Positions 1,315 to 16,658 of a stretch of 45,244 nucleotides of DNA are shown piece after piece. The stretch spans positions 1 through 45,244 of the forward strand of contig CANGIY010000026.1 in assembly GCA_947454235.1 (NCBI GenBank), read 5' to 3'. The position numbers were made by a program, and so were the translations under genes. Source of the stretch: Chitinophagaceae bacterium. Its GTDB lineage: Bacteria > Bacteroidota > Bacteroidia > Chitinophagales > Chitinophagaceae. Position 1 is the first letter of the stretch. Each line of letters starts with the position of its first letter. The notes under the pieces are model-generated. The model searched no databases. It was not told the origin of the DNA and saw only the letters and a list, made by a program, of their open reading frames with translations.

Positions 1315-2754
1315 CTAAACAATTGGGCGCAAGAAAAAATTATCCAACGTTTCTTTCAACTTTTTATCATTCAATTCTTTTGCCTTGTTCCTTAAAGCAA
1401 CAGAGTCAAAATAGGAAACCTTGTAACTTGAATCGGATGCTATCTGCTTATCAAGCAAAGACTTAGCGTTTTCAGTGAATCCACTCGTTGACCAATATTC
1501 AAATTCTACTTTTTTTCCTTTAAGAGTTTCTTGTGATAGAAGCCACTTTCTAAATGCCGGGATTTTTGTATTGAGCCATTTAAGAATCATTCCCTCATCA
1601 ACCTGACCTTTAATCGCTTTGCACTCAGCAATAACAATTTTGTTACCATAGATAGCCAAAACATCCATTTCATGCCGAGCATTATTCATAATAATTTCCC
1701 GACCCAGATCAATACTGTTGCATTCTTTACTGTGAATGTGACCAACTGCAAATTCGAAAAGGGTTCCACGAATATTGTTCAATAATCCCTCGTTGTATTT
1801 TTTCAATTCGGCAATTAGATCCAGGTATTTTTCAGGATTCGATTTTAAACTTGCCCCGGCATTACTTAAAATTGATATCAATTCCCTAAGTGCTTTGGCG
1901 TATTTTTCGCCAAATAAGTCTTTTACAAATCCAACAATAACACCTTTTTCTTTTAATGCCCTTAGTCCCTCTTTATCCAAATCGTCTACGATGAGAAATG
2001 GCAAAAGTCTGGAAGCACCTTTAAAGCTCTGAAGAAGCTGGATTTTTTCTATAAAAAATAGAATATCATTTTTATAAAACGGCTTGCCAATAAGAATATC
2101 GGCGAGAAGAAAACCCGGTTTGTTGTTGTGTTTTAAACCAAGTACGTAAGAAGCACCCTTAAATCCCCATCGTAATTTTCCGAATTCGCCAAATAACTCA
2201 CCGGAATCATATGAAATAAGCCCAGTGTTTCTGCATAGACTGTGGAAACTTTCTAATGTGGTATCCTTTATCAGTTCTATAGTTTTGTGAATCAGCGGAT
2301 TCGTAATTAAGGAGCTAAACTTTGGGGAATAAATGTAATCCTCGTTGTTAAATACAAGTATTTCTTCCGCAATAAAACTCTGCATTATTTCCTTGAAGGG
2401 ACGATGCTTTTTTAAAGGTAAAACAGGGTAATTGGTATAACATTCAAGGTACTTGTTACTGATTACACCGTCATGCATTTTTAATGCATTGAAAGTGAAC
2501 CAGTATTTTCTGCCACTTTCATACATTGCTTTTGATACAATCTTAAGTAAATCAGGATCGTCTAAATGTTTTGGCAAATAACAAAGTGATTGATTGCTCT
2601 TAAAGAAACCTTTTATTTGAATTATTTCCCTGTCTCTAGATACTCGCTGGCTGGCAGAATTAAGTGTGATATTGCCTGTTTCAGACATTGTTCTCACCAG
2701 CTCGCTTGACATAAGCGGGCCTTTCTCCTCAAGAATTGATTTAATAGTTGTCAT
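1315..2754 (-). CDS. Winged-helix protein with C-terminal PD-(D/E)XK nuclease domain
   Basis: 479 aa. Residues 1-60 look like a winged helix (SELVRTMSETGNITLNSASQ, then a basic segment). The C-terminal part carries a restriction-endonuclease-like core: Glu334 in TLFEFAVG, Asp364 in HEMDVLA, and Glu377-x-Lys379 in IVIAECKA, the spacing expected of PD-(D/E)XK enzymes. It likely cuts DNA, with the N-terminal domain binding it. It is the last gene of the minus-strand island, 189 nt after hsdR, so it may have its own promoter or be read through. No methyltransferase of its own is adjacent. The family name is not recognised; the nuclease fold is well supported by motif order. Confidence 0.7.
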   Translation of the reverse strand: MTTIKSILEEKGPLMSSELVRTMSETGNITLNSASQRVSRDREIIQIKGFFKSNQSLCYLPKHLDDPDLLKIVSKAMYESGRKYWFTFNALKMHDGVISNKYLECYTNYPVLPLKKHRPFKEIMQSFIAEEILVFNNEDYIYSPKFSSLITNPLIHKTIELIKDTTLESFHSLCRNTGLISYDSGELFGEFGKLRWGFKGASYVLGLKHNNKPGFLLADILIGKPFYKNDILFFIEKIQLLQSFKGASRLLPFLIVDDLDKEGLRALKEKGVIVGFVKDLFGEKYAKALRELISILSNAGASLKSNPEKYLDLIAELKKYNEGLLNNIRGTLFEFAVGHIHSKECNSIDLGREIIMNNARHEMDVLAIYGNKIVIAECKAIKGQVDEGMILKWLNTKIPAFRKWLLSQETLKGKKVEFEYWSTSGFTENAKSLLDKQIASDSSYKVSYFDSVALRNKAKELNDKKLKETLDNFFLRPIV

Positions 2755-2943
2755 ATGACTCTATATATAAACAACTCGTTAGAGTTGATATAAGAAAGCA
2801 ATTTTGAAATTTGCAAGCTAACTAACAGTAATAGCACGATTTTACTCCACTTTTCAACCCATATTATGGAAAATTGCCTGTCATAGCTGTGATTTAAGAC
2901 CAAGAAAAACAACATAATCTTAGCCTTAAAATCTTGCCAAAAT

Positions 2944-5900
2944 TTATGCCACATTCCTATTCTCAATAGCCTGTTGATAAAAGTGCTGATAAATATTTTC
3001 ACATTTGGTGCTGTATAACGGTCGGTCATAGGTATCTGGTAAATAGGCATCTAAAACGGTTTTAATAGCGTCCTGCACCTGAATTCGTGTTTGGGTGTCC
3101 TTATGCCAGTCGTTGATGAGAACGGTCGGTTTTTCCTCTTTTAAACGCTTTAAAAGATTCTTGGCTGAAAGTTTCACTTTCTGCTCTTCATCCTTCGTCA
3201 GGTTTTCTTTCTTTAAAAGGTCAAAAATTTCAAGCTCACTTTCAGTTAATCCTTCACGGGCGGCTCGCTGTTCTTCATCCTTCATTTTTTCCATGAAAGA
3301 CATTAAATCTTCAAAGTAATTTTCTGTAGTTGCCCCGCCTGAGTTATAACGGTCTATAAGCTCCTGCAATTTTTGTGCAAAACTAATTCTGGTAACATTT
3401 CGTTCCATCATCTGCTTAAGCTTTTCAGAAATGAATGCCCGTAAATCTGCTATCTCAATATTCTTATGAGGTGCACATTTGTATTCTTCTTTCAGCTTGT
3501 CAACATCGAGCTTGCTAAGGTCAATTTCTCTCCAGGGCTTAATGTAATAAGCACCATTTTCTGCAACAATAGACGCATCATGATGCTGAGTTGATTTGTT
3601 TGCATCCTCATGAGCAATGATACTATCATCTAAAAGCTGGCTAATCCGGCGTTTTGCGCTTTCTAAATCTGCACGGTCTGCTCGTCCGTCTATAACTTCA
3701 CGGAGGTAATGTATAATAGCAGCAATTGGGAACTCCTTTCTTCTACCAAGTATATCAGGTTTACATGCTTCATAAAGGGCGTCAACCATATTGTCATAAA
3801 CGACAAACTGCTTTTTCCTTTCGTCACTGGCAAGAATGGTATCGGCATATTCATCAAACAAAGCCAATTTGTTGAAAACAATACCTGAATCAACAATTCT
3901 TTGCAAATCCACATCAAAGCCTTGGCAATATTCTACACATTCGCTGATTGCATCTTTAAGTAATACAAAAAGTTGATCTTTTTCCTGTACTGGCGAATCT
4001 TCACCAGCCCCCTCACCACCAATAACAGAGCCGCCACCATAAGAAGCAAAAGCCTTTTTAAGATTTCGGAAAACATTGTAGTAGTCAACAATCAAACCAT
4101 TTTTCTTGGGCTTATTATTTATCAAATGGTCGGTTACCCTGTTTGCCCTTGCAATGGTTTGCATCAGGGAGTGGTCTTTCATTGGCTTGTCTAAATATAG
4201 CGTAGATATGGTTGGAGCATCAAAACCTGTCAGCCACATACTACATACAAAAACCAATTGTAGGGGATCTTTCGGGTCTTTGAATTTATCCTCGAGCTCC
4301 TGCCCGTTTTCATCGGCAGTCAACATTCGTTTTCTATGGGTTTTAATATCCAAACCCTGCTTTAAGAATTTCTCCTCTTCTCCCGCTTCTTCGCTTACTA
4401 TTACAGCCATGTCTGCCCTTCGCATCCACTCAAGAATGTACTTCAATTCTGCTTTGTCAGAAGGGAGTTTTGTCTCGTTGATCTGTGTTTGCAGCTTTCT
4501 CTTTTCTTCTTCCCATAAGCGTTTCACCTTGTCATACATTCTGACTGCAGTAAACTTATCAATGGTTACCACCATTCCCTTGCCTAAATAACCTCGCCTT
4601 GGAAAGTGATAAACAATATCTGAGGCAATTTTTTCTAAACGGTCATCCCTGGTAATGATACCAAATTCGGTGGCAAATTCACGTTCAAGTTTCTGCTGGT
4701 TAACTTCATCAATATTTTCATCTGCTAGAATTTCAGCAAGGTCTTCGTTAATATCATCGTTTTGAAGCAAAACTTCGGGAACACGCTTATGATAGAACAA
4801 TGGAACTGTTGCACCGTCTTCGATACTTTGCTTAAAATTATATTCTGAAATTGTTTTGCCAAACCAATTATTGGTTAATTCCTTATTGCCGAACAAAGGA
4901 GTTCCTGTAAAAGCAATATATTGGGCATTAGGTAAGCCCGTGCGTAAATTTTCAGCAAGGTCTTTATATTGGCTTCTGTGCGCTTCATCAATAATAACTA
5001 CTATATCATTTCTGTCTGAAAGGAGCGGGTATTGTTTGCCCTTATCATAACGGAACTGCTGAATAAGCGAAAAAATATAGCGGGTGTTGGTTTGCAACAT
5101 TTTGCGCAAATCTTCACTGTTTTTTGGCAGACATTTAGTTTCCTTTGAAAATGCTCCTGCCCCTAAGAAGTTGCGATAAATCTGGCTATCAAGATCAAGC
5201 CTATCAGTCACTATTAGGAAAGTATAATTGCCCGTGAAATTTCTAAATATCTTACGGGTAAAGAAAATCATACTATAGCTTTTACCACTGCCTTGGGTGT
5301 GCCAGAATACCCCCAGCTTGCCTTTATTCCCTGAATCTGAGCCTTCCTTATCATGTTTTAATCGAAGTTCAAAATTTTGAATGGCATTATTTACCCCCAA
5401 AAACTGGTGGTTTTTAGCAATGATTTTAGCAACATCATTGTAATAAATAATGAAATTATCGAAATAGTCTAACAGGCGGTTTTTCTGACAAATACCAATT
5501 ACAGCGTAGTCAAGACTGACGCCGAATTCCTTAATTCGCTTTTTATCTGGAACTTGCTTTTCACTTTCAGGACGAAGCCACGGAAAAAAGTGCCCATAAC
5601 CAGAATTGAAACTACCTACTTTTGTTTCCAAACCATTACTCAACATGCAGATTGCGTTATATTGGAACAGTTGTGGAATATTTTTTCGGTATCTGGTTAG
5701 GTTGTCATCATAAGCATTGCGAATAGCGATGTTGCTATTTTTAAGCTCTATGAATATCAGCGGTAAGCCGTTTATGAAAACTATTAGATCGGGGCGCACC
5801 CTATATTCTTTACCTTGTATCCAAAGCTGAGATACAACCAGATAATCATTTTTTGTTTCGTCTTCAAAATCAAGAACCTTAACAGTAACTTTTTCCTGCC

Positions 5901-6216
5901 TGTCCTTATCATTGTTTACTGTAACATCAATTCCGTTTTTTATCAGGCCGTAAACTTCCTTGTTGGCAAAGTATTCGCTCTTATCCAGGTGAGACGTGTA
6001 TAATTGCTCTGCAGCAGCTTCAATTAAGTTTGCAGGTATTGAGGGATTTAGCTCTTTTAGTTTTTTTAATAACAGCGGCTTAATAACTACTTCCGATTCA
6101 TTGGCTCGACCCGTTACATCTGAATGCAGGCAGTTTAAATGCCTATATTTCAGGTTATGTACAAACACGTCAATAATGGCTTGTTCTATCTGGTCTTCGG
6201 ATATAAAGTTCTGCAT
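2944..6216 (-). CDS. hsdR: Type I restriction enzyme, endonuclease/translocase subunit R
   Basis: 1090 aa, the normal length for HsdR. The N-terminal nuclease has RPDLIVF (Pro142-Asp143) and FIELKN (Glu157-x-Lys159). The SF2 motor has Walker A TQGSGKS around 307-313 and a DEAH box at 410-413 (VVIIDEAHRSQ), followed by helicase motifs such as VCSMWLTGFDAP and QTIARANR. The C-terminal helical region ends naturally, so the subunit appears intact. With HsdM and HsdS it should translocate on and cleave unmodified DNA. It starts 5 nt after the 426-aa gene, so those two are probably co-translated, but it is separated from hsdS by the caspase gene and the 426-aa gene, which is unusual. Confidence 0.95.
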   Translation of the reverse strand: MQNFISEDQIEQAIIDVFVHNLKYRHLNCLHSDVTGRANESEVVIKPLLLKKLKELNPSIPANLIEAAAEQLYTSHLDKSEYFANKEVYGLIKNGIDVTVNNDKDRQEKVTVKVLDFEDETKNDYLVVSQLWIQGKEYRVRPDLIVFINGLPLIFIELKNSNIAIRNAYDDNLTRYRKNIPQLFQYNAICMLSNGLETKVGSFNSGYGHFFPWLRPESEKQVPDKKRIKEFGVSLDYAVIGICQKNRLLDYFDNFIIYYNDVAKIIAKNHQFLGVNNAIQNFELRLKHDKEGSDSGNKGKLGVFWHTQGSGKSYSMIFFTRKIFRNFTGNYTFLIVTDRLDLDSQIYRNFLGAGAFSKETKCLPKNSEDLRKMLQTNTRYIFSLIQQFRYDKGKQYPLLSDRNDIVVIIDEAHRSQYKDLAENLRTGLPNAQYIAFTGTPLFGNKELTNNWFGKTISEYNFKQSIEDGATVPLFYHKRVPEVLLQNDDINEDLAEILADENIDEVNQQKLEREFATEFGIITRDDRLEKIASDIVYHFPRRGYLGKGMVVTIDKFTAVRMYDKVKRLWEEEKRKLQTQINETKLPSDKAELKYILEWMRRADMAVIVSEEAGEEEKFLKQGLDIKTHRKRMLTADENGQELEDKFKDPKDPLQLVFVCSMWLTGFDAPTISTLYLDKPMKDHSLMQTIARANRVTDHLINNKPKKNGLIVDYYNVFRNLKKAFASYGGGSVIGGEGAGEDSPVQEKDQLFVLLKDAISECVEYCQGFDVDLQRIVDSGIVFNKLALFDEYADTILASDERKKQFVVYDNMVDALYEACKPDILGRRKEFPIAAIIHYLREVIDGRADRADLESAKRRISQLLDDSIIAHEDANKSTQHHDASIVAENGAYYIKPWREIDLSKLDVDKLKEEYKCAPHKNIEIADLRAFISEKLKQMMERNVTRISFAQKLQELIDRYNSGGATTENYFEDLMSFMEKMKDEEQRAAREGLTESELEIFDLLKKENLTKDEEQKVKLSAKNLLKRLKEEKPTVLINDWHKDTQTRIQVQDAIKTVLDAYLPDTYDRPLYSTKCENIYQHFYQQAIENRNVA

Positions 6217-6221
6217 AAAGT

Positions 6222-7502
6222 TTATTTTTTCAAAAACTTATTACCATTCCAATGAATGACCGACAAGCCCTCATTAATTTTCTCAATCAATAGTTGCCCT
6301 AATTTTCCTGATTTATCAAGTAATTCTGCATCTTTTCCAGAAATTGTAAATCGAATTCCAAAGCCGGGACAAACATTTAAGGTTGAATACTTTTTAGAGT
6401 ATATTTTTTCATTCATGTTTTTTTGAGCCTTTGCATCATAAGTGATTATACCATTACTTTCCAGCTGCTTAACCAATTCAGGAATGTGTTCTATGCCATG
6501 CTGATAAATTTCGTTTTTGTTTTTTTTCCAGTAATCTATGAATTTGTTTGCATCCGTCGAATTAAACCAAACTAAATTTGTGTTCATAAATGAAAAATGG
6601 AAATTAGGTGAAATCCACCATTCCTTCGAAGATAAATGATCAATGCTCGGATTTGAATTGTAAAACTCCCATGCTTGATTTTGCGTATCACTAAATATCA
6701 ACTGAAGTTGAAGCTCCCAATCCTCATTAACGCGTTCATAAATAAGACCAATTTTCCTTATTGAGTTATAAGGAACTGATATGTAATATCCCCAGCTTCT
6801 GTGGTACGAAACCCTATCAGGGTTCTGAACAATTTCAAGAAGTAGATTGTTAATCCTTCTATAGATTAGCGTTTCATTGCCTTTACACAAACTGAAATTG
6901 TCATAGGGATTTAAAGTTGGGAAAATTGCATCAACAAAAGACAGGAAATCTTCGATAATCATTTTCTCGTAACCGGAAACAGTTTGCAGATTTAATAAAC
7001 TATTCAGATGTTTGATTATTTCTTTCCACTCAAGCACCACTGGATTGCAATATATTTTTGACTCCTTGTCTAAATTCTCGTTTGAGGGGTTTAACTGGTC
7101 AAACCAAACATTGTAACTGGCAGGCTTGTTTTCGATAATCATTGTCAAATTCCTGCCGAAAGTGATAATGCCATCATATCGGGCATTTCTTTGAACCGCC
7201 TTTATTTGCTTAGTGGTATGCAAATTGGAGTCTGTTATCAGGATGCTCATAACCCAATTAGTTTCTATTATTGGGTTTGCTCTCTGTGTATCCAGTTCCC
7301 AACACTCTTCAGAGAGTTCGATCAATGAAAATGCCTTTTCATCCTTTTCAGGCAGTACGACATGCTTGTTTTTGCAATATTCAAAAAAAGTTGAAAATGC
7401 GTGAAATGAATGCTTCAATACAACAAGATAAGCCCGTGTTAGTTGGTCTTCATGGCTTTCGCTTTTTGAACTGTATGGGTTGAAGTAATTAAGCCTGTTC
7501 AT
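6222..7502 (-). CDS. Unrecognised protein with PD-(D/E)XK-like N-terminus, in the hsd locus
   Basis: 426 aa. Residues 17-24 (HEDQLTRA) with Asp110 (RYDGIITFG) and Glu124-x-Lys126 (MIIENKPA) match the Glu...Asp...ExK arrangement of PD-(D/E)XK nucleases. The middle and C-terminal parts are unfamiliar; the middle contains several Trp-rich stretches (SKEWWISPNFHFSF) and the tail has PGFGIRFTIS. There is no signal peptide or membrane segment. It lies between the caspase fusion and hsdR, 5 nt before hsdR, so it probably works with the restriction system, either as an extra nuclease or as a sensor with a degenerate nuclease fold. No functional name can be given. Confidence 0.6.
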   Translation of the reverse strand: MNRLNYFNPYSSKSESHEDQLTRAYLVVLKHSFHAFSTFFEYCKNKHVVLPEKDEKAFSLIELSEECWELDTQRANPIIETNWVMSILITDSNLHTTKQIKAVQRNARYDGIITFGRNLTMIIENKPASYNVWFDQLNPSNENLDKESKIYCNPVVLEWKEIIKHLNSLLNLQTVSGYEKMIIEDFLSFVDAIFPTLNPYDNFSLCKGNETLIYRRINNLLLEIVQNPDRVSYHRSWGYYISVPYNSIRKIGLIYERVNEDWELQLQLIFSDTQNQAWEFYNSNPSIDHLSSKEWWISPNFHFSFMNTNLVWFNSTDANKFIDYWKKNKNEIYQHGIEHIPELVKQLESNGIITYDAKAQKNMNEKIYSKKYSTLNVCPGFGIRFTISGKDAELLDKSGKLGQLLIEKINEGLSVIHWNGNKFLKK

Positions 7503-7525
7503 ATTTTATATATTTAATAAATAAT

Positions 7526-7586
7526 CCCCGCCGCAAGCAGCGGGGTATTTCGGGCGATAACTCTTTTTTACTCGCAGCAAGCTGCG
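7526..7586. repeat. Pair of GC-rich hairpins in the gap within the hsd locus
   Basis: The 121-nt gap between the caspase gene and the 426-aa gene holds two similar palindromes: CCCCGC-loop-GCGGGG at 7526-7545 and CGCAGC-AA-GCTGCG at 7573-7586, both containing the core gcaagc. Neither is followed by a T-run on the minus strand, so they are not textbook terminators. They could attenuate transcription, protect an mRNA 3' end, or be REP-like repeats. They split the island transcript into hsdM-hsdS-caspase and 426aa-hsdR parts. Confidence 0.55.
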
Positions 7587-7623
7587 GGGAATTCAACCCG
7601 AAAGGTGATTAAATAGATCTCAA

Positions 7624-9027
7624 TTATACAAGCATAATTCTCTGGAAGCGTTCATTTCTTTTAATTAATAAACCAACTTCTTTTTTTAACATATCCTCAT
7701 CATGCATTTTAAGAATTATCAAAGGTTTTTTTGCTTCTGTTGCGTGAATTAGATACCCCAACATTCTGTACGAAATGCTTAATGCAATGTTAGACATGGA
7801 GATATCAACCACAATTTCATCGCATTCCAATTCGAAATTGTAATTCTTTAAGTGTTCCGCTTTCACTAAACTCATTTCTCTAATTTTTATATTGCATGGA
7901 TTAATAGCCTGAAAAATTGACTCCAATTCGTCAAATGAAAATATATACTTATTCGGTGGCCCGGCAACAAATTCCATTTGACACACAGCGTCATATTTTT
8001 CAATAAAGAGTTTATATACTTTAAGCCCCTGTCCTCCGTCCCTTGATGCAGCTTCAAACGTATTGAAAGTAGAGTTCGAATAGTCAGTAATAATTAATTG
8101 GTTATCAGACATTTCCAGAAAAACGCTATTTGCGTAATTATGATGAAATAAATTTAAAACAATTTCTGTGACGAACTGAATGAGATCTCTTCTTAAATTA
8201 TTTTCAAGTTTTAAGCTCTCATTCATAAAAAAAGCCACAACATCCTCGTCGCTCTCCGACTTCAACTTAATATTACATTGATGAATATCAGGCTTTTTTT
8301 CAAAAAATGCAAAGGGATAGTAACCGCTTAACTGCGTTTGAATGAATGGGGTCTGTTTATAATCACCGTTGTAAAGGATCTTAATCAAAGCATATTCATG
8401 AATATTAAATAACGATAAACAATTTGTTTCAGAATTATACAACTTATTATTGTCAATTGCGTCCAACAAATATTTTGTGAACAATCCATTTTTATATTTT
8501 GGAATTGCTGCCGATCTTTCATCGGCTTTACACGAACATAAAAAGAAAACTCCGTCTGAATCTGCAATATATCGCTGGCTATAATACTCGTTCATTCCAG
8601 ATAACTCAGCTCTATTTTTAAATTCGATATCCATTCCAGAATGACAAGCATCAAGAATGAAAATTTTATGAAAAGTGCCAAGCGAATTAATGTCAGTGAA
8701 GATGTCCTGCATCTTCACCTTTATTTCATGAAATTCCAGGTAAGTTTCGTCCAGATATTTACCATGTCCCGAAAAATAAAACAGCACACAGTCCGTTTCA
8801 TCATTTATTGACGGCTTGAGTTTTTCTAGTTCATCTTTGTATTTCTCTAAGACATTAACAGGTGCGTTTTCCGTGCTAATTATCACCTTGATATTATCGT
8901 CAAGAAAATTACAATTGGAAATAAGACGTTTTTTTAACTGCAAAACATCATTATCGCAATAGTGCAATTCATCGGGAGCCTTGTAATCATTAATTCCAAC
9001 CAATATGGCGTATCTAATTTTGCTCAT
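7624..9027 (-). CDS. Caspase-family protease fused to a GHKL-type ATPase and STAS-like tail
   Basis: 467 aa. Residues 1-240 are a peptidase C14 (caspase/metacaspase-like) domain starting RYAILVGINDY, with the catalytic dyad His88 (FYFSGHGKY) and Cys128 (LDACHSG). Residues 276-366 resemble a GHKL/HATPase_c domain of the anti-sigma-kinase sort: an N-box Glu288-x3-Asn292-x3-His296 (EIVLNLFHH), a weak G1 box (ITDYSN) and a G2 box GGQGLK at 331-336. The last ~70 residues have the alternating pattern of STAS-like/DUF4325 tails found next to such ATPases. The ATG at 9027 lies 14 nt inside the hsdS stop, so the gene is translationally coupled to hsdS. It is probably an abortive-infection protease gated by ATP binding or a protein partner. 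Its targets are unknown. Confidence 0.8.
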   Translation of the reverse strand: MSKIRYAILVGINDYKAPDELHYCDNDVLQLKKRLISNCNFLDDNIKVIISTENAPVNVLEKYKDELEKLKPSINDETDCVLFYFSGHGKYLDETYLEFHEIKVKMQDIFTDINSLGTFHKIFILDACHSGMDIEFKNRAELSGMNEYYSQRYIADSDGVFFLCSCKADERSAAIPKYKNGLFTKYLLDAIDNNKLYNSETNCLSLFNIHEYALIKILYNGDYKQTPFIQTQLSGYYPFAFFEKKPDIHQCNIKLKSESDEDVVAFFMNESLKLENNLRRDLIQFVTEIVLNLFHHNYANSVFLEMSDNQLIITDYSNSTFNTFEAASRDGGQGLKVYKLFIEKYDAVCQMEFVAGPPNKYIFSFDELESIFQAINPCNIKIREMSLVKAEHLKNYNFELECDEIVVDISMSNIALSISYRMLGYLIHATEAKKPLIILKMHDEDMLKKEVGLLIKRNERFQRIMLV

Positions 9028-10234
9028 GGACTTTGTCTGTTTTTTTTACCTTCAATTTTCCACTAATCAACCTTGGCAAAAACCTGTCTCGGATTTGACG
9101 CAATTGGTCATTTTCACTTTTTAGAATTTCAATTTGTTCAAAAAATGGTTTTACAACAACTGAATATTTTTCTTGAAGGTCAATGTCTGCAACAAGGACT
9201 TCTTTTGAAATTAACTCCCCCCAATGCCGCTTATACTCAGTTGTTTCGACTAAACTTTCGATTAAAAAAAACAGATAATATATTGGCATGTTTTTTTTAG
9301 ATGAAAATGGAATAACATTTTCTGCCAGTGAAAATGGCTCTATCATAACTCGCATCTTACATGTGTGATCGCCAAATATAATCATTGGTGTTTCGGAAGT
9401 AGCCGTATGATCTGGCAGATTATTGTGATATCCGACCAAGTCCTCACTTGACTGACCAATCACAACTATCTTTCCATTTATCAGCAACTCATGTGGTTTA
9501 TAAGTTCTACCGAATTTCTTTCTGTCAACCAAATCTTTCACTTTGAGAACTTCCCAATTTATGGGAGCACCCTTAAGAAACTTTATATTTTGAAAGTCAG
9601 GAAATCTTTTTCTAACAAACCACTCTTTATATATCTCTCTTGCGGATTCTTCCAACAAATTAATCCTGTGATTATTTAGCTCAATAAAGTCATCATAGCA
9701 ATTCAGTAAAGATGCTATGATTTCCTGCTCCCTACTGTCAGGTAGGCTAAATAGTTTATAGTTCGAAAATTTAGTCCATTGAAAACGTGCCACACCCGTA
9801 TGTTGAGTATGAAACATGTATGAAATCCTGGCTTCGTATAAAAAGCGTAAATACCAGTAAATAAATGATGGCACTGCTTTATTAACATCAATTCTGATAA
9901 ATCTGCTAAAACTGGCACATGTAAATTCGTATTTGCCATTCTGTGAAATGAATTTTTCCGAAATGAATACCACTCTGCCAGTTGGCATGTCTTCTGTTCC
10001 ACCTGCTGTCTCTATCAGAATATCATTGGCTTGAAGTTTTTTTCTCCCTGCGATTGCTTTGGGGATATATCGTTTGGGTATACCCTCAATACTGCCTGAT
10101 TTTAGCTTTTCAAAGGCAGTTCCCCTTATTACAAGCATCTCTGTATGGTTAGGAAGAGGTTCTCCCTTGCCCCATTCACCGTCCTTACTTTCCTCAATCA
10201 AAGTGGAAAGACATATTGGCTCAATTTTGTTCAT
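9014..10234 (-). CDS. hsdS: Type I restriction enzyme, specificity subunit S
   Basis: 406 aa with the usual two target-recognition domains, each followed by a conserved helix: REQEIIASLLNCYDDFIELN near residue 170 and a second helical spacer near 360-395 ending RDRFLPRLISGKL. It determines which split DNA sequence the enzyme methylates or cuts. It overlaps the end of hsdM by 14 nt and itself is overlapped by the caspase gene by 14 nt, so hsdM, hsdS and the protease look like one translation unit. Both recognition halves seem present, so the subunit is probably functional. The DNA target cannot be read from sequence. Confidence 0.92.
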   Translation of the reverse strand: MNKIEPICLSTLIEESKDGEWGKGEPLPNHTEMLVIRGTAFEKLKSGSIEGIPKRYIPKAIAGRKKLQANDILIETAGGTEDMPTGRVVFISEKFISQNGKYEFTCASFSRFIRIDVNKAVPSFIYWYLRFLYEARISYMFHTQHTGVARFQWTKFSNYKLFSLPDSREQEIIASLLNCYDDFIELNNHRINLLEESAREIYKEWFVRKRFPDFQNIKFLKGAPINWEVLKVKDLVDRKKFGRTYKPHELLINGKIVVIGQSSEDLVGYHNNLPDHTATSETPMIIFGDHTCKMRVMIEPFSLAENVIPFSSKKNMPIYYLFFLIESLVETTEYKRHWGELISKEVLVADIDLQEKYSVVVKPFFEQIEILKSENDQLRQIRDRFLPRLISGKLKVKKTDKVHEQN

Positions 10235-12053
10235 AAGTGATTGATAGTAGGTTTTTATTTATTAGCTTTTCTAAATCTACCGCTTTTGAGTTCAGCTCAT
10301 TCAGCTTACTATGCCGTTCTTTCATTTCTGACAAAAACTCGTCTTCGGTTAACCCGTCTTCTTCAATTACAACACCCACATACCTTCCAGGGTTCAAACT
10401 GTAATCGTGTTCCTCCAATTCCGCCATTGATGCGGCTTTGCAAAGCCCAATTACATCTTCATATCCACCGTTAGGGAAGCGTTCATTCAACCAACTAATC
10501 TGATATTGAAAATAGGTTGCTTTATCTTGAAGTTCTTTATGCTTTTTGGTGGCCTCATCCAATGACTTTTCCCATTTTTTTAATTCCTTATCATTGTCAG
10601 GCTTCGCTTTTTGAATCTTTTCTACTTCCTTAGCTTGAGCTTCAGCCTTGTTTGTGTATTCGGCTACCTTGGCCGCATATTTTGCTAATAACTCAGTTAA
10701 CCTTTCATTTTCGCCGCGGTAAAGGCGCACTATGGTTGCAATGTTCTGAATATGCTCCGGCGTAAACTCGCGCAAAGCACGGGTTACCTGTTTAAAGATA
10801 TTACGAGCATCTATAAACAGAACTTTATGTTCTGTTCCCTGCCTTGCTTTATCAAAAAACCATAGGGTAGCAGGTAGCGTAACTGTGTAGAACATATTTT
10901 TTGGCAGGGTGAGCATACAATCAATAACACCGCTTTTAATAAGGTTCTTGCGTATGTCCGCCTCGCTGTTTCTTGCATCACTGGCACTGTTTGCCATTAC
11001 AAGCGCAGCCTTGCCTTTATCGTTTAAAGAAGTGGCAAATAGGTTTATCCAAAGGTAATTACCGTTGGGCACTGTGTTGGTATCCTTTTCTTTATTTCCA
11101 CTGCTTTTAGTTTTGTTCTGTGGAATGCCATATTCGTTGAACCGAGGCTGCCCCTTAACCTTATCGAGGTTCACATCATCCACATTGAAGGGTGGATTGG
11201 CCATTACATAATCAAACCTTCCGTAACTGTTAAACGGATCTTCATAATAGCTATTGGCGGGCATTATTTCGCCACGCAAGCCATTTACTGCAAGATTCAT
11301 TCTCGCCAGCTTCACGGTTTCAGGCGTTCGCTCTGCACCATAGACCATAAGGTCTTTAGTGTCTGTATCATGTAACTCTTCTCGTCTGCGATCAACAAAG
11401 TAAGAGCTTTGCACAAACATACCTGCGCTGCCACAGGCAGGGTCAAAAATGGTTCCTTTGTAAGGCTCAATGATTTCTACCATCAGCTTCACAACGCTGG
11501 TAGGTGTGAAGAACTCTCCACCTCCTTGTCCTTCAGCAAGTGCAAATTCTGCCAAGAAATACTCATAGACCTTGCCAAAAATATCACCGCTTGCACTTTC
11601 AGGAATATCAGCAAATATTTTGAGCAAGCTTTTAGGTAAGCCTCTGTCATCCTTTGAATAGAGTTTGAAATATTCATCTTTCGGCAAACTGTTCTGCAAT
11701 TCAGGCTTATGAAGTTCTATAAGCTCCATCGCATGCTTTATTGCCTTGGCAATATCTTCCTTTTCAGGAAGGTTTAGCAAGTATTCAAATTGCGCCTCTG
11801 GTGGCAGGTAAAAGCCACATTCTATTATTGCAAGTTCAATTTCGGTTTGTTGCTTTCTCTGATTAGCCTGAGCCGCAATTATTGCGTCAATCTTTGGCTT
11901 TATCTTGTTGTAACGAATTGAAGCAAAGCGCAGGAATATCAGCCCTAAAATAGGCGTAGCATATTCACTAGCTTTCAAGCCACTATCTACCCTTAATTTA
12001 TCAGCCGCTTGCCAAAGTCGTGATTCAAGTTCTTTTAGTTCTTCCTGGGTCAT
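10221..12053 (-). CDS. hsdM: Type I restriction enzyme, N6-adenine methyltransferase subunit M
   Basis: 610 aa. It has the N-terminal HsdM helical domain, the GGGEFFTP turn around 177-184, SAM-binding motif I DPACGSAG at 204-211 and catalytic motif NPPF at 286-289 (gamma-class N6 adenine methyltransferase). The C-terminal part includes a charged coiled coil (roughly 455-515), longer than in the shortest HsdMs, and ends with a segment that contacts HsdS. It lies 43 nt downstream of the ABC-3C ATPase and overlaps hsdS. It should methylate host sites and form the M2S core with HsdS. Confidence 0.95.
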   Translation of the reverse strand: MTQEELKELESRLWQAADKLRVDSGLKASEYATPILGLIFLRFASIRYNKIKPKIDAIIAAQANQRKQQTEIELAIIECGFYLPPEAQFEYLLNLPEKEDIAKAIKHAMELIELHKPELQNSLPKDEYFKLYSKDDRGLPKSLLKIFADIPESASGDIFGKVYEYFLAEFALAEGQGGGEFFTPTSVVKLMVEIIEPYKGTIFDPACGSAGMFVQSSYFVDRRREELHDTDTKDLMVYGAERTPETVKLARMNLAVNGLRGEIMPANSYYEDPFNSYGRFDYVMANPPFNVDDVNLDKVKGQPRFNEYGIPQNKTKSSGNKEKDTNTVPNGNYLWINLFATSLNDKGKAALVMANSASDARNSEADIRKNLIKSGVIDCMLTLPKNMFYTVTLPATLWFFDKARQGTEHKVLFIDARNIFKQVTRALREFTPEHIQNIATIVRLYRGENERLTELLAKYAAKVAEYTNKAEAQAKEVEKIQKAKPDNDKELKKWEKSLDEATKKHKELQDKATYFQYQISWLNERFPNGGYEDVIGLCKAASMAELEEHDYSLNPGRYVGVVIEEDGLTEDEFLSEMKERHSKLNELNSKAVDLEKLINKNLLSITYEQN

Positions 12054-12096
12054 GTTTTATTGTAAGTATGAATTGTTTTTAAATGATTGATTTCCG

Positions 12097-14079
12097 TTAC
12101 AAATACCAAGCTTCGGGTATTAGTTTTTTGCCGTCACGCCATACGTCAACCTCGTAAACTCCTTCGATCCCTCCATAGATCGTGTCATCAGCATGGTCAA
12201 GAATAATACTTTGCCATCCTCCCTTTGTTGCATTAATCGAATTGGCAATTGTTCTAAAAATATTTTTCACTGCATCGACATCTTCATCGTTAAATTTCTG
12301 GTCAACACTGGTGCCATCACTGACCTTTTTTAATTTAGGGAAATATACCTGACTTGGTTGGTCAAAGATTACGAACGAAGGAACGCAAGAATTTGACTGC
12401 TCTAAAAAATACTCCTGCATTGAGCACATCAATCCAATGTGAAATGAAACCCAATTTGATGCACTACCAACTTCTGCAAGAAAATGCCAATTATTATCAT
12501 TACTTAAAACGGAAATATTTAAGTCCTTTATGTCAAATCTTGGTGCAATTTTTCGATATTTCTCCTCAACATCCAAAGTTTTTAAATGATTCAAAATCCC
12601 TTGAGATATCTTGGCTGTGGCACTATAAACTCTTTTTTGCACACCGTTTAAATCGACAATTTTTGACAGTCTATCAAATTCCTCTTGTAGAGATTCAATT
12701 TCAATTTGGTATGTACCACCATCTACAAGGCTTTCAAATGTTTCTGTCGATGCTTTAAGATGCCCAATAAAAAGAAACATGTTTTTGCGCATCTGAAATT
12801 CTTCCTGAGCACCTTTATCTCGTGAGATTAGCAAGTCATATCTGCTTTGCAGTTCTTTTTTATTCTCTAATAGTTTTTCAAGCTCAGATTGCAATCTATC
12901 CTCTTCCCTTGAAAATGAAGTTGGCACCTCTGCGACACCTTGAGCTTCAGCTTCGCATTTCTCAAAAGCCACAATAATCTTATCTATTTCAGCCTTGCTA
13001 TTTGGATGGTTATTGCTTCCACAAGCGATACAAACTTCAGATTCGGTCGCAACCTCTCTAAACCATTTCGATATATGGAGTCTTTCAACTCTCTTTTTAA
13101 CAGAATTTCCATAATCAGTAAACCCACTCTTGAGATTCTTTAAATCATTGAGGCGCTTTTTTACTATACTTATTTGGTTGCTGAGAACATTTTCTTCTGC
13201 GTCCAGAGTGGAAATCTCCTTGCTAGCATGCTCGATATTTTCCAAACTTGATTTGGAATACTCAGGTATATTCGCAACGACTTCTTTTGCAATTGCCAAC
13301 AGCTCATTTGAAGAAGTAGAAATATCCACATTTTGGTTAACGAGTCCATATTCTTTTGCAATCTTAATTTGGCCAAGCATGTTCGCAAGCCAAGATGTTG
13401 AAATCGCTTTTGCTTTGTCAAATTCTCTTTTCAATTGGTTGAGCTTTTTCTCGATTTCTTGAATTCTTTGACGTGCGGTCAATATTTCAATAGTTTCAGC
13501 ACCTAAAATATAGGGAAACCAGTTACGCAGGCGCTCACGATGCTCGTGTGCATGAGTCTTGTAAAATAAAATGTTTTGATTTGCTACAATGTCTTGGTTT
13601 TGAAATATTAATGCAACCAAGTCTCTGAAGCCAAGTCGTGCCTGGTATGCCTTTCTATTTTCGTCACTATCCAGGCTTATATAAGGAACTGACGATATTG
13701 CATTGAGAATATTTTTAATTCCTTCAAGACTTTCATTCTCATTAATTATTTTTGGAGGAATACTAATCTTAGAGCCTCTTAAACAATAAAACTTATTTGA
13801 AACCTTATTCCCATTTGGAACCTCTCTGCATATCAGCAATTGATCAATTTCAGTTTGGAATACTACGCCATACCAAGTTGCGTGATCCCTAATCGTGTCA
13901 ATAGGAATGAAGCAATCACTTGAAGCCAAACAGTAGTCAATGATTGGTATAATAGCTGACTTTCCAGTACGCGATGCACCAGTAATAACATTTAGTTTAC
14001 CTGCTTGAAATTCGACCTCTCTTGGGGCAAACTGCTCAGATTTAGGCCAAATAACTAACTTCAGAATCTGGAATTTCAT
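12097..14079 (-). CDS. SMC/Rad50-like ABC ATPase of an ABC-3C system (DUF3732-type)
   Basis: 660 aa. Walker A is GASRTGKS at 34-41, a Q-loop-like segment (FQNQD) lies at 159-163, long coiled coils span about 200-340 and 365-500 with a zinc-hook-like CIAC at 350-353 between them, a signature-like segment lies around 537-550, Walker B/D-loop is FVIFDQPSQ at 569-577, and a His-containing ILDHAD follows at 626-631. Walker B reads D-Q where many ABC ATPases have D-E. This organisation matches the DUF3732 ATPases of ABC-three-component conflict systems. It starts at the stop codon of the middle component (TAATG, 1-nt overlap). It likely senses or clamps DNA ends and controls the partner effector. 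Confidence 0.8.
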   Translation of the reverse strand: MKFQILKLVIWPKSEQFAPREVEFQAGKLNVITGASRTGKSAIIPIIDYCLASSDCFIPIDTIRDHATWYGVVFQTEIDQLLICREVPNGNKVSNKFYCLRGSKISIPPKIINENESLEGIKNILNAISSVPYISLDSDENRKAYQARLGFRDLVALIFQNQDIVANQNILFYKTHAHEHRERLRNWFPYILGAETIEILTARQRIQEIEKKLNQLKREFDKAKAISTSWLANMLGQIKIAKEYGLVNQNVDISTSSNELLAIAKEVVANIPEYSKSSLENIEHASKEISTLDAEENVLSNQISIVKKRLNDLKNLKSGFTDYGNSVKKRVERLHISKWFREVATESEVCIACGSNNHPNSKAEIDKIIVAFEKCEAEAQGVAEVPTSFSREEDRLQSELEKLLENKKELQSRYDLLISRDKGAQEEFQMRKNMFLFIGHLKASTETFESLVDGGTYQIEIESLQEEFDRLSKIVDLNGVQKRVYSATAKISQGILNHLKTLDVEEKYRKIAPRFDIKDLNISVLSNDNNWHFLAEVGSASNWVSFHIGLMCSMQEYFLEQSNSCVPSFVIFDQPSQVYFPKLKKVSDGTSVDQKFNDEDVDAVKNIFRTIANSINATKGGWQSIILDHADDTIYGGIEGVYEVDVWRDGKKLIPEAWYL

Positions 14080-14582
14080 TAGAATACCACTTTTAAATAT
14101 GATGCAATAGTTGATAAATTATGTTGTGAAAACCACATCCCCAAAATTTCAGCCTTTTTTCCTTCACCAAGTTGAGCCTCATTTGGCTTGTTACTTTTAG
14201 ATGGAATCTTTGCAATTTCTTTAGCATATATTTTTCCTGTATCAGTATCCCAAACTATTAGCCCATCTGCAACAGCTATATCCAAGGCTTCGAAAATGTA
14301 TTTTCTTTTCGCCTTTATTCTCGTCTGAATAGAAAGTAATATATCCGAATCCTTATTTTCTTCGAAACTTCGGATATAAGATTGAAGGTCTTTTCTGCGG
14401 TTTGTTATATGTTTAGACAGTCGTTCATTTGTTAAAATTGATAGTGCAATGAAATGTAACAAACCTATCGGAGCATCGCCACTCGGGTGGTTCTTACAAT
14501 AACCTTGCGTAAACTTCCAAAGAAGAAATGCTCCTATAACCGGAGTATTCCAAATTTTAACTTCTTCAACCAAATTTCCCAT
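14079..14582 (-). CDS. ABC-3C system middle component
   Basis: 167 aa, mostly helical. It begins with VKIWNTPVIGAFLLWKFTQG and looks like a small winged-helix/adaptor protein, with GLLHFIALSILTNERLSKHI near residues 40-60. Proteins of this size and style sit between the third component and the ATPase in ABC-three-component systems and are called middle components. It starts 3 nt after the 382-aa gene and its stop overlaps the ATPase start, so the three are made together. It has no catalytic motif. The assignment rests on gene order plus sequence style. Confidence 0.65.
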   Translation of the reverse strand: MGNLVEEVKIWNTPVIGAFLLWKFTQGYCKNHPSGDAPIGLLHFIALSILTNERLSKHITNRRKDLQSYIRSFEENKDSDILLSIQTRIKAKRKYIFEALDIAVADGLIVWDTDTGKIYAKEIAKIPSKSNKPNEAQLGEGKKAEILGMWFSQHNLSTIASYLKVVF

Positions 14583-14585
14583 AGA

Positions 14586-15734
14586 TTATTTTTTAAAAGA
14601 TTGTTCCCATTTAGGATGCCATCCAAGTAATGGTTCATCAGCCAGGGCTTGATAAGTGCCAGAAATTGTTTTTGCGGGTGGGTCCATGTCCCTTATTTTT
14701 TCTATTCTCATTTTACATTGCGTATATAGCAATTGCCCGAATTCTGCATCACCCAAGTTTTTATTAGTTATCCTAAGTTCTCGCCTTTTATTATTCCAAA
14801 AGTCAGTCAATTTTGTCTCAAAATCCTGAGCAACAGTTTCGTCAATAATATCAGCTTCAATCCACTTGCCTCTATTGACTTTTGCTCTCATGTAATCCGT
14901 TACAGCTTCAATTATTTCGTCCTCGTTCTCTAATTCTATTTCAATGAGTTGTTTTAAATATAATGGCTGTTGCTTAATCTGTTTATGGACATCAGAAGAA
15001 TTGGGAGGGTTTTGCAAAGCAAAATCTACAAGTTCTAATGTACGAGATCGGTCAAATAGAACCATAAATTCTTTATCGAACTCTTCCCAAGAAATAATGG
15101 CATTTTGCTTTTGCGAAATTTTATTGATTACCACTTTTTGTAGCCAACCGCTAATATTTCGAAGCGAAAATTCAATTTGACTCTCAGGGATATGTTTTTC
15201 ACGAATTTTCTTCTTTATTGATTCATACCCGTAATCCTCCTTTATTTCCAACTCAAATTTTTTAATAATCTGAGCAAAAACATTACCATGTTTATTAACT
15301 ACGTTGTCATAATAAACCCAAATATCATGTTTGTCAGTTATGTCGGATAGTTCAGCCTTACAATCATCAATAGCTTGGTTTACATCTCCATCTGTTTTGG
15401 CATTATGGAATTTATCTATAATTCCCTGCCGTCCCTTTTTGTTTGTAAATAAAACAAACTGCGTTTTTTCTATTGTCAGATTTTTATTTTCAATAGCGTC
15501 AATCCAGTTAGAAAAAGTTTTCCATAAATCTGTAGATCTATCTGTTAATGGATTTCCTACAATTGAAGACTTGTCTTCTTCTGTGATCGCATTGCCACTA
15601 GCCAATAACAAAGCAACATCTCCTAAATACTCAATGCAAACGCAGTCACCCTGCCCCATACTCAATAGGTGAAATAAAGCACGCGGAAATTGAATCACAT
15701 ATCCTAAAAGTTGACCTGGGGCGTTCGAACTCAT
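14586..15734 (-). CDS. ABC-3C system third component, N-terminal nuclease-like domain
   Basis: 382 aa. The N-terminal 80 residues (PGQLLGYVIQFPRALFHLL, CIEYLGDVALL, TEEDKSSI, then DLWKTFSNWI) follow the pattern of restriction-fold domains in ABC-3C proteins. Asp39 and Glu53-x-Lys55 could serve as a PD-(D/E)XK-type active site. The remaining ~300 residues are helical and end with LADEPLLGWHPKWEQSF, likely the domain that binds the other components. It is the first of the three ABC-3C genes and follows the 81-aa gene by 71 nt. It is probably the DNA-attacking or effector part of the trio. Whether the nuclease site is active is uncertain. Confidence 0.65.
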   Translation of the reverse strand: MSSNAPGQLLGYVIQFPRALFHLLSMGQGDCVCIEYLGDVALLLASGNAITEEDKSSIVGNPLTDRSTDLWKTFSNWIDAIENKNLTIEKTQFVLFTNKKGRQGIIDKFHNAKTDGDVNQAIDDCKAELSDITDKHDIWVYYDNVVNKHGNVFAQIIKKFELEIKEDYGYESIKKKIREKHIPESQIEFSLRNISGWLQKVVINKISQKQNAIISWEEFDKEFMVLFDRSRTLELVDFALQNPPNSSDVHKQIKQQPLYLKQLIEIELENEDEIIEAVTDYMRAKVNRGKWIEADIIDETVAQDFETKLTDFWNNKRRELRITNKNLGDAEFGQLLYTQCKMRIEKIRDMDPPAKTISGTYQALADEPLLGWHPKWEQSFKK

Positions 15735-15805
15735 TTGTAAAACTGATTGAATTTAAATACTAAAACTGTACTATAACAATTCAGAAGTGCAATAGTTTTA
15801 TAAAA

Positions 15806-16051
15806 CTATCTTTCCTTACTCTTATTCTTTGTAGGCTCAACTGAAGGTGTGTTTTTTCGAGACATCCCTTTAAGTCGTCCCTTTACCTTCTCCATCTCAT
15901 ATTCCTGTTTGCCAGAAATGAGGCCGTCCAAGTAGTCATTACCTTCATTGGTATTACCAGAGGCTAACTTCTTAGAAAGTTCCGGCTCATGCTTCGCAAT
16001 GAGGTAGCCATTGTTGAAGCCTTCCGTATATAGTTTTTCGTTCTTTTCCAT
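15806..16051 (-). CDS. Small charged hypothetical protein
   Basis: 81 aa, strongly charged, starting MEKNEKLYTEGFNNGYLIAK and ending in a Lys/Arg/Ser tail. It begins 1 nt after the stop of the HTH gene, so it is co-translated with it. No family recognised beyond a vague likeness to small proteins that accompany HTH genes in Bacteroidota islands. It has no membrane segment. Possible roles are an antitoxin-like partner or an island maintenance protein; neither is supported directly. Confidence 0.6.
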   Translation of the reverse strand: MEKNEKLYTEGFNNGYLIAKHEPELSKKLASGNTNEGNDYLDGLISGKQEYEMEKVKGRLKGMSRKNTPSVEPTKNKSKER

Positions 16052-16052
16052 A

Positions 16053-16322
16053 TTAAAAGGTCTCGTTTACATGTTTACCTAAATACTCATTGATTGAGTC
16101 GTTATCGTACAGAATAATTTTCTTCTCTGGTTGAGAGAAACGAAGTTTACCCTCATCCCTGAGTTTCTGAAGCGTGGTTTTACTTGAAATTCTTAGGATT
16201 TTCATAGCTTCTTCCCCTGAAATCCACCTATCCTGCTTCACGCCCTGTTTTTCTTTTATGCGTGCGACAACCTTTTCAATTAGGGCATAAAAGGCTTCGT
16301 CTTGTAAGCAAATTACTTCCAT
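16053..16322 (-). CDS. Helix-turn-helix (excisionase/MerR-like) DNA-binding protein
   Basis: 89 aa. After a helical N-terminus, residues 31-80 form a typical excisionase-like wHTH: WISGEEAMKILRISSKTTLQ, then KLRDEGKLRFSQPEKKIILY, and a helix (DSINEYLGK). Such genes in Bacteroidota islands act as excisionase/directionality factors or local regulators. It is the first gene of the minus-strand island and faces the tRNA-Met gene, the usual place for an integrase/excisionase module. No integrase is visible in the window. Confidence 0.75.
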   Translation of the reverse strand: MEVICLQDEAFYALIEKVVARIKEKQGVKQDRWISGEEAMKILRISSKTTLQKLRDEGKLRFSQPEKKIILYDNDSINEYLGKHVNETF

Positions 16323-16573: not shown

Positions 16574-16584
16574 GATTTTCAATG

Positions 16585-16658
16585 TAGCGAGAACGGGATT
16601 TGAACCCGTGACCTCAGGGTTATGAATCCTGCGCTCTAACCAACTGAGCTATCTCGCC
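16585..16658 (-). tRNA. tRNA-Met (anticodon CAT)
   Basis: A 74-nt cloverleaf on the minus strand: acceptor GGCGAGA/TCTCGCT with a G-U first pair, D-arm GCTC/GAGC, anticodon arm CAGGA-TTCATAA-CCCTG, T-arm ACGGG-TTCAAAT-CCCGT, discriminator A, CCA not encoded. The anticodon is CAT. Because it lacks initiator features (it has no run of three G-C pairs in the anticodon stem) it is probably elongator Met; a lysidine-modified Ile tRNA cannot be excluded. The pair closing the anticodon loop (31-39) is A-C, a mismatch. Confidence 0.93.

Follow-up and report, generated by a model that had tools for sequence, protein, structure and literature searches.

PrrC is an anticodon nuclease. Its gene is embedded within the type I restriction locus ecoprrI (PMC12707154), and the interval between hsdS and hsdR is a described slot for DarTG2 (PMC12255303) and for TgvAB and RloF (PMC11411939). 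The present analysis concerns a 467-residue protein encoded at the corresponding place in a 45,244-nucleotide (nt) stretch of DNA from a Chitinophagaceae bacterium (contig CANGIY010000026.1). The whole stretch is referred to as the window, and all coordinates are positions on it. The protein carries a caspase-family peptidase domain, related to the cell-death proteases of animals, a putative diverged GHKL domain, and a predicted STAS-like tail on a single chain.

Like prrC, an effector gene, the 467-residue gene is an addition lodged within a type I hsd locus; we know of no domain that the two proteins have in common. The DarTG2–RptR island and TgvAB likewise place defense genes between hsdS and hsdR or inside an hsd operon (PMC12255303, PMC11411939). 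DarTG2 is a toxin–antitoxin pair and TgvAB a GmrSD-like type IV restriction pair; neither is described as having a protease effector.

VapKSC and CapK/CapS combine a kinase-type GHKL domain with a STAS partner that is tied to an effector or repressor, in a defense context; the kinase phosphorylates a serine of the STAS protein, and activation is by single-stranded DNA (PMC13373217). In those systems the parts are encoded by separate genes, whereas the window protein is one chain. VapC is an RNase-type toxin rather than a caspase-family protease, CapK has the order helix-turn-helix (HTH)–STAS–GHKL rather than caspase–GHKL–STAS, and the putative GHKL domain of the window protein looks histidine-kinase-like, with a degenerate G1 box. 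Proteins of the type winged HTH (wHTH)–GHKL–DUF4325 (wHTH assigned by eye) also place a head domain, a GHKL domain, and a STAS-type tail on one chain, and some adjoin hsdR, but their head is of the HTH type, with no protease, and their sequences do not match the window protein significantly.

Two caspase systems are also relevant. The EACC1–caspase conflict system (PMC7159879, System 4) shares with the window protein an N-terminal caspase followed by a different C-terminal domain; the gene upstream in the window, however, is hsdS and not EACC1, and the words GHKL and HATPase are absent from the main text of that paper. TIR–caspase immunity (type IV Thoeris) is alike in having a caspase-family protease as the suspected killer, but no TIR match was found at an expectation value (E) of 0.1 in the ten operon proteins scanned.

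Results

Domains of the 467-Residue Protein

The protein, its domains, and the hsd genes that surround it are as follows (scores are E values).

7624–9027, minus strand: 467-residue caspase–GHKL–STAS-like protein (open reading frame, ORF; Pfam C14; GHKL profile; tail fold)
8332–9015, minus strand: caspase-family peptidase domain, residues 5–232, dyad His88/Cys128 (Pfam PF00656, C14, 2e-22)
7942–8250, minus strand: GHKL ATPase-like domain, residues 260–362 (kinase profile and motifs; independent kinase profile negative)
7627–7926, minus strand: STAS-like tail, residues 368–467 (predicted fold)
10221–12053, minus strand: hsdM (Pfam N6_Mtase 4.6e-81; 14-nt overlap with hsdS at 10221–10234)
9014–10234, minus strand: hsdS (Pfam Methylase_S 1.8e-14; 14-nt overlap with the caspase gene at 9014–9027)
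2944–6216, minus strand: hsdR, downstream (HSDR_N 9.9e-43, SWI2_SNF2 1.5e-66)

An earlier reading of this DNA, made from the letters alone (the sequence-only reading), had given the coordinates, lengths, and both 14-nt overlaps of hsdM, hsdS, and the 467-residue gene exactly, and its naming of the two hsd genes agrees with the Pfam matches. Its description of the N-terminal domain as a caspase with a His88/Cys128 dyad also holds. When the window protein is aligned with ten further bacterial caspases, all 11 sequences have His88, Asp126, Cys128, and Gly131 in common, and the best PDB sequence match of the domain is a plant metacaspase (metacaspase-9, 1.1e-7). Judged by these residues, the protease looks catalytically intact. 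A match to SNaCT9 (PF22715; 0.00015, 22.6 bits, cut-off 27) was treated as chance; matches to this family at E 0.01 occur in 11 of 296 phylum genomes, the window's own included, and none reaches the cut-off. A full-length single-sequence AlphaFold2 model had a mean confidence (pLDDT) of 36 and was unusable for the GHKL part; the Foldseek list for it was headed by metacaspases (best E 2.3e-3), but the model is too poor for this to be weighed.

The GHKL assignment requires more discussion. The N-box residues Glu288, Asn292, and His296 are kept, and the same Glu, Asn, and His are invariant in eight VapK-type genes; a G2 box, GGQGLK, lies at 331–336. The G1 box, DxGxG, is degenerate (DYSNS at 315–319), with Asp315 kept and the glycines lost. 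When the C-terminal half was compared with 395 phylum genomes, 13 matches were found outside its own genome. Eight of these were scanned: seven carry HATPase_c (one, L017, below the curated cut-off) and the eighth is an ABC transporter. A profile built from those seven kinases recovers the window protein with a sequence E of 1.6e-13 and a domain E of 4.3e-13 among 2645 background ORFs, over residues 260–362 and with the N-box and G2 box in register, although these values are inflated because the kinases were chosen by query matches. Comparison by hhalign with 30 VapK-type and wHTH–GHKL domains also places the N-box in register (P 0.01): 9 of 400 background segments score equally well or better, the top six of them from the wHTH–GHKL/VapK-type family itself, and none of 200 shuffles reaches the score (best shuffle 19.3, versus 20.1).

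Besides the biased choice of kinases, several results weigh against the assignment. The hhalign probability is just 4%. A profile of seven other kinases, built independently of the query, ranks the window protein 105th at E 43, and the same profile does recover wHTH–GHKL proteins, at E values down to about 7e-6. The curated Pfam HATPase models give no match to the window protein even at E 10. On balance the sequence evidence is taken to support a diverged GHKL domain: the N-box and GGQGLK motifs pointed out in the sequence-only reading stand. Pfam finds no phosphoacceptor domain of the HisKA or HisKA_3 type in the protein.

For the tail, a predicted fold lends moderate support to the possible STAS assignment made in the sequence-only reading; Ser417 would stand at position 2 of α2, the second helix predicted. 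There is no Pfam match, and in hhalign comparison with STAS/DUF4325 domains 135 of 400 background segments score equally high, so that no sequence profile match can be claimed. Against a profile of 18 full-length GHKL–DUF4325 proteins the window protein scores 1.1 bits, at E 22 and rank 95. With a profile of 16 classical STAS proteins it ranks sixth (E 1.5), but this offers the tail no support because the alignment falls on the GHKL region. The domain order caspase, GHKL, STAS-like tail is supported.

Search for Further Fusions

The caspase–GHKL fusion is an orphan, a single example within searches that reach close relatives best. Among 99 relatives, a full-length search matched 18 genomes (its own included), the others covering the caspase region; the furthest query residue matched is 279, in a frame with stops. 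Four of 395 class genomes, again including its own, matched the C-terminal half, the other three over 94–114 residues; this class draw and the phylum draw partly share genomes. Although 23 plasmid records match the full-length query, none does so beyond residue 246, and neither plasmids nor phages yielded a match to the C-terminal half. A motif search added 115 caspase loci, 35 on viral contigs and 80 taken as the best of 205 relatives in the species-genome collection; together they hold 5071 ORFs, none of which matches the C-terminal half at E 1. The sequence-only reading's criterion, that the C14–HATPase pair should recur between hsdS and hsdR in unrelated genomes, is not supported, no second fusion having appeared in any of these sets. 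The literature searched, which lacked most subscription papers and bioRxiv, contained no account of a caspase–GHKL protein or of any hsd operon that includes a caspase.

HsdM or HsdR relatives lie near a caspase in 2 of the 115 loci. The caspase follows hsdR in L140 and precedes hsdM by about 5 kb in L166; neither lies between hsdS and hsdR. In the former (L140:2538-10966, Evansella tamaricis) a TIR-like ORF, assigned by eye, and the caspase gene are found slightly downstream of the hsdM–hsdR set. A split version, with caspase, GHKL, and STAS as neighboring genes, was considered for L137, L144, L148, L150, and L153 and rejected, because the GHKL genes there read as sensor kinases, four of the five adjoining a response-regulator gene (by eye).

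GHKL–DUF4325 proteins with an HTH-like head (by eye) are found in 17 of 247 phylum genomes and on 23 IMG/VR contigs. In 5 of the 18 loci inspected such a gene is near hsdR: in L095, L096, L097, and L098 the two are divergent neighbors, and in L272 an ORF separates them. The HsdR search was the source of four of these five loci, and all five genomes share a genus (g130), so that they may represent one lineage. The divergent genes are candidates for the regulation of type I restriction operons. Only two papers in the literature searched mention DUF4325. In other genomes a DUF4325 gene is often preceded by a GHKL gene, and three loci from genomes of the same class (L292, L298, L300) show runs of GHKL, DUF4325, and a PIN-like ORF (by eye) that resemble VapKSC.

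The hsdS–hsdR Slot

Of 296 phylum genomes, 32, among them the window's own, encode HsdR relatives at E 1e-100 or better. Outside that genome, 29 of 34 such places were fetched, and four (L083, L095, L096, L098), in which hsdS or hsdR was not identifiable, were left out of the count. At least one ORF of at least 150 residues, on either strand, lies between hsdS and hsdR in 21 of the remaining 25 loci; L081 and L082, with gaps of 379 and 809 nt, are marginal among these. The place assigned to the 467-residue gene, inside a type I operon between hsdS and hsdR, is thereby confirmed as a slot that regularly holds an extra ORF, and it is in print for other cargo. Among the matches in a Pfam scan of 30 proteins from these loci are GmrSD, McrBC, Fic, RhuM-Fic, an IrrE-type peptidase, OLD-type AAA_15, a deaminase with AAA_21, a protein kinase with a TPR protein, a helicase, and a D12 methylase. 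Four of the 30 have no Pfam match at 0.01, and none is a caspase. Among the occupants of this known slot the 467-residue gene is of a new kind, in which known domains are brought together in a new combination.

Neighboring Genes and Spacer

A minus-strand gene run extends from 16322 down to 1315. Its remaining members are these.

16053–16322, minus strand: small HTH_17 protein, encoded first in the run (PF12728 2.4e-7)
12097–15734, minus strand: Lamassu/ABC-3C trio upstream of hsdM on the same strand, with a 43-nt gap to hsdM
14586–15734, minus strand: LmuA/CTD7
14079–14582, minus strand: LmuC/MC3
12097–14079, minus strand: LmuB-like DUF3732
7503–7623, minus strand: 121-nt spacer following the caspase gene, containing a pair of hairpin units and a terminator-like stem-loop (7545–7526)
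6222–7502, minus strand: 426-residue product of the gene that separates the caspase gene from hsdR (PD-(D/E)XK-like motif, assigned by eye only)
1315–2754, minus strand: 479-residue protein with a C-terminal Card1/CARF–PD-(D/E)XK-like region (weak matches: Pfam 0.0056, PADLOC 1.3e-5)

The order is HTH_17 protein, an 81-residue ORF, LmuA/CTD7, LmuC/MC3, LmuB/DUF3732, hsdM, hsdS, the 467-residue gene, the 426-residue gene, hsdR, and the 479-residue gene, with successive gaps of 1, 71, 3, −1, 43, −14, −14, 121, 5, and 189 nt. The overlaps at 9014–9027 and 10221–10234 closely resemble each other in sequence, agreeing at 11 of 14 positions. HsdM and HsdS share the C-terminal residues EQN, and the N-termini of HsdS and the caspase protein are MNKI and MSKI. 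The near-identical overlaps could be a recombination joint.

Both hairpin units of the spacer, at 7530–7545 and 7574–7589 on the minus strand, match CCCCGCNGCTTGCNGC. These are its only exact matches in the 4.17-Mb genome; one further copy was found in L283 of a different genome. Folding of the spacer beats 200 of 200 shuffles (z −3.16), with the terminator-like stem-loop at its end, and an Rfam scan of 6900–9100 gave a single match, at E 0.22 and below gathering. The spacer may be a mark of an imported segment, or an attenuator ahead of the hsdR part.

The 426-residue protein matches no Pfam family above its cut-off; a 20%-identical relative (E 4e-6) lies directly upstream of hsdM in another genome (L099:4254-5639). 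A 36%-identical relative of the 479-residue nuclease-like protein is found in Faecalibacter (L165:11736-13178), where a caspase gene and ORFs judged TIR-like by eye are close by; the protein may repeatedly accompany caspase loci.

A tRNA-Met gene (16584–16658, minus strand) lies just upstream of the run, whose G+C content (GC; 0.367 for 1315–16322) is below that of 16660–45244 (0.415), as for an island at a tRNA. No copy of at least 12 nt of the tRNA-Met gene occurs elsewhere in the window, nor was a tRNA-end repeat found there; the contig begins at base 1 of the window, so that the far end of the run is out of view.

Discussion

The interpretation favored here, with a probability of roughly 0.4, is of an effector protease of the caspase family that occupies the hsdS–hsdR slot of a type I restriction operon as cargo and has its own GHKL and STAS-like switch on the same chain. 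By analogy, the GHKL–STAS pair points more directly to kinase/STAS control of the CapK/CapS and VapKSC type than to a guard of the PrrC type. In the resting cell the pair would hold the caspase off. A stress signal, such as DNA damage, single-stranded DNA, or a change of nucleotide state during infection or restriction, would then lead to an ATP-dependent rearrangement or to phosphorylation, for which Ser417 is a candidate acceptor. The freed protease would cleave host proteins and bring about growth arrest or death of the infected cell. The whole would amount to VapKSC compressed into a single polypeptide, with a protease replacing the RNase.

A more specific form of this scheme, in which the protease is released when the GHKL kinase of the chain phosphorylates the STAS tail of that same chain, is doubtful. 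A protease effector would thereby come under control of the stressosome type, its place in the hsdS–hsdR slot letting it fire when restriction or phage replication causes DNA damage, and we know of no described case of such a one-chain partner-switching protease toxin.

It was proposed in the sequence-only reading that the restraint may be the restriction enzyme itself, as for PrrC: HsdM, HsdS, and HsdR, or their complex, would keep the caspase latent until a phage anti-restriction protein freed it and the cell died. The gene is indeed embedded in the operon and overlaps hsdS by 14 nt, and the PrrC of ecoprrI fires when T4 Stp inhibits the enzyme (PMC12707154). Location alone is no proof of guarding, however, because the cargo of this slot is highly varied and protection by embedded TgvAB does not require the nuclease activity of HsdR (PMC11411939). 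No feature pointing to Hsd-protein binding was noticed, though no search was aimed at one. What survives of the proposal is the embedded location, on which the analogy rests; a guard role seems unlikely.

Decidedly unlikely is a reversal of roles, in which the caspase is the activator and the GHKL–STAS part an effector freed by autoproteolysis. Such release has been proposed for EACC1–caspase proteins, where a constant N-terminal caspase is joined to diverse C-terminal domains (PMC7159879), and the window protein does show similarity to caspase_w_EACC1 at 6.5e-17. That match, however, has 61.7 bits against a cut-off of 140, the upstream gene is hsdS, the strongest hydrophobic stretch averages only 1.24, and in described cases GHKL and STAS domains are regulatory.

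A protease that degrades or trims HsdR or other operon products, and so controls restriction during establishment or stress, is very unlikely. The overlap with hsdS and the terminator-like hairpin ahead of the hsdR segment suggest that expression is tied to M and S, and ClpXP control of HsdR is a precedent (PMC12255303), but the operon does not need the caspase gene, because related hsd loci carry other cargo or none at this place. Least probable is a rapidly diverging hitchhiker or decayed gene with a nonworking GHKL/STAS part, since the orphan status of the fusion, its degenerate G1 box, and its GC of 0.328 within a low-GC run are set against a full-length open frame with an overlapping start, an intact dyad, and an intact N-box.

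If the interpretation of a protease effector with its own switch is true, it would unite three branches of bacterial immunity known so far from separate descriptions: the cargo of restriction operons, toxin release by kinase/STAS pairs, and caspase-like proteases. His88, Cys128, Glu288, Asn292, His296, Gly332, Gly334, Ser417, and Ser419 would then be handles on how a bacterial caspase could be restrained, and the hsdS–hsdR interval of this hsd family would be a productive place to look for new effectors.

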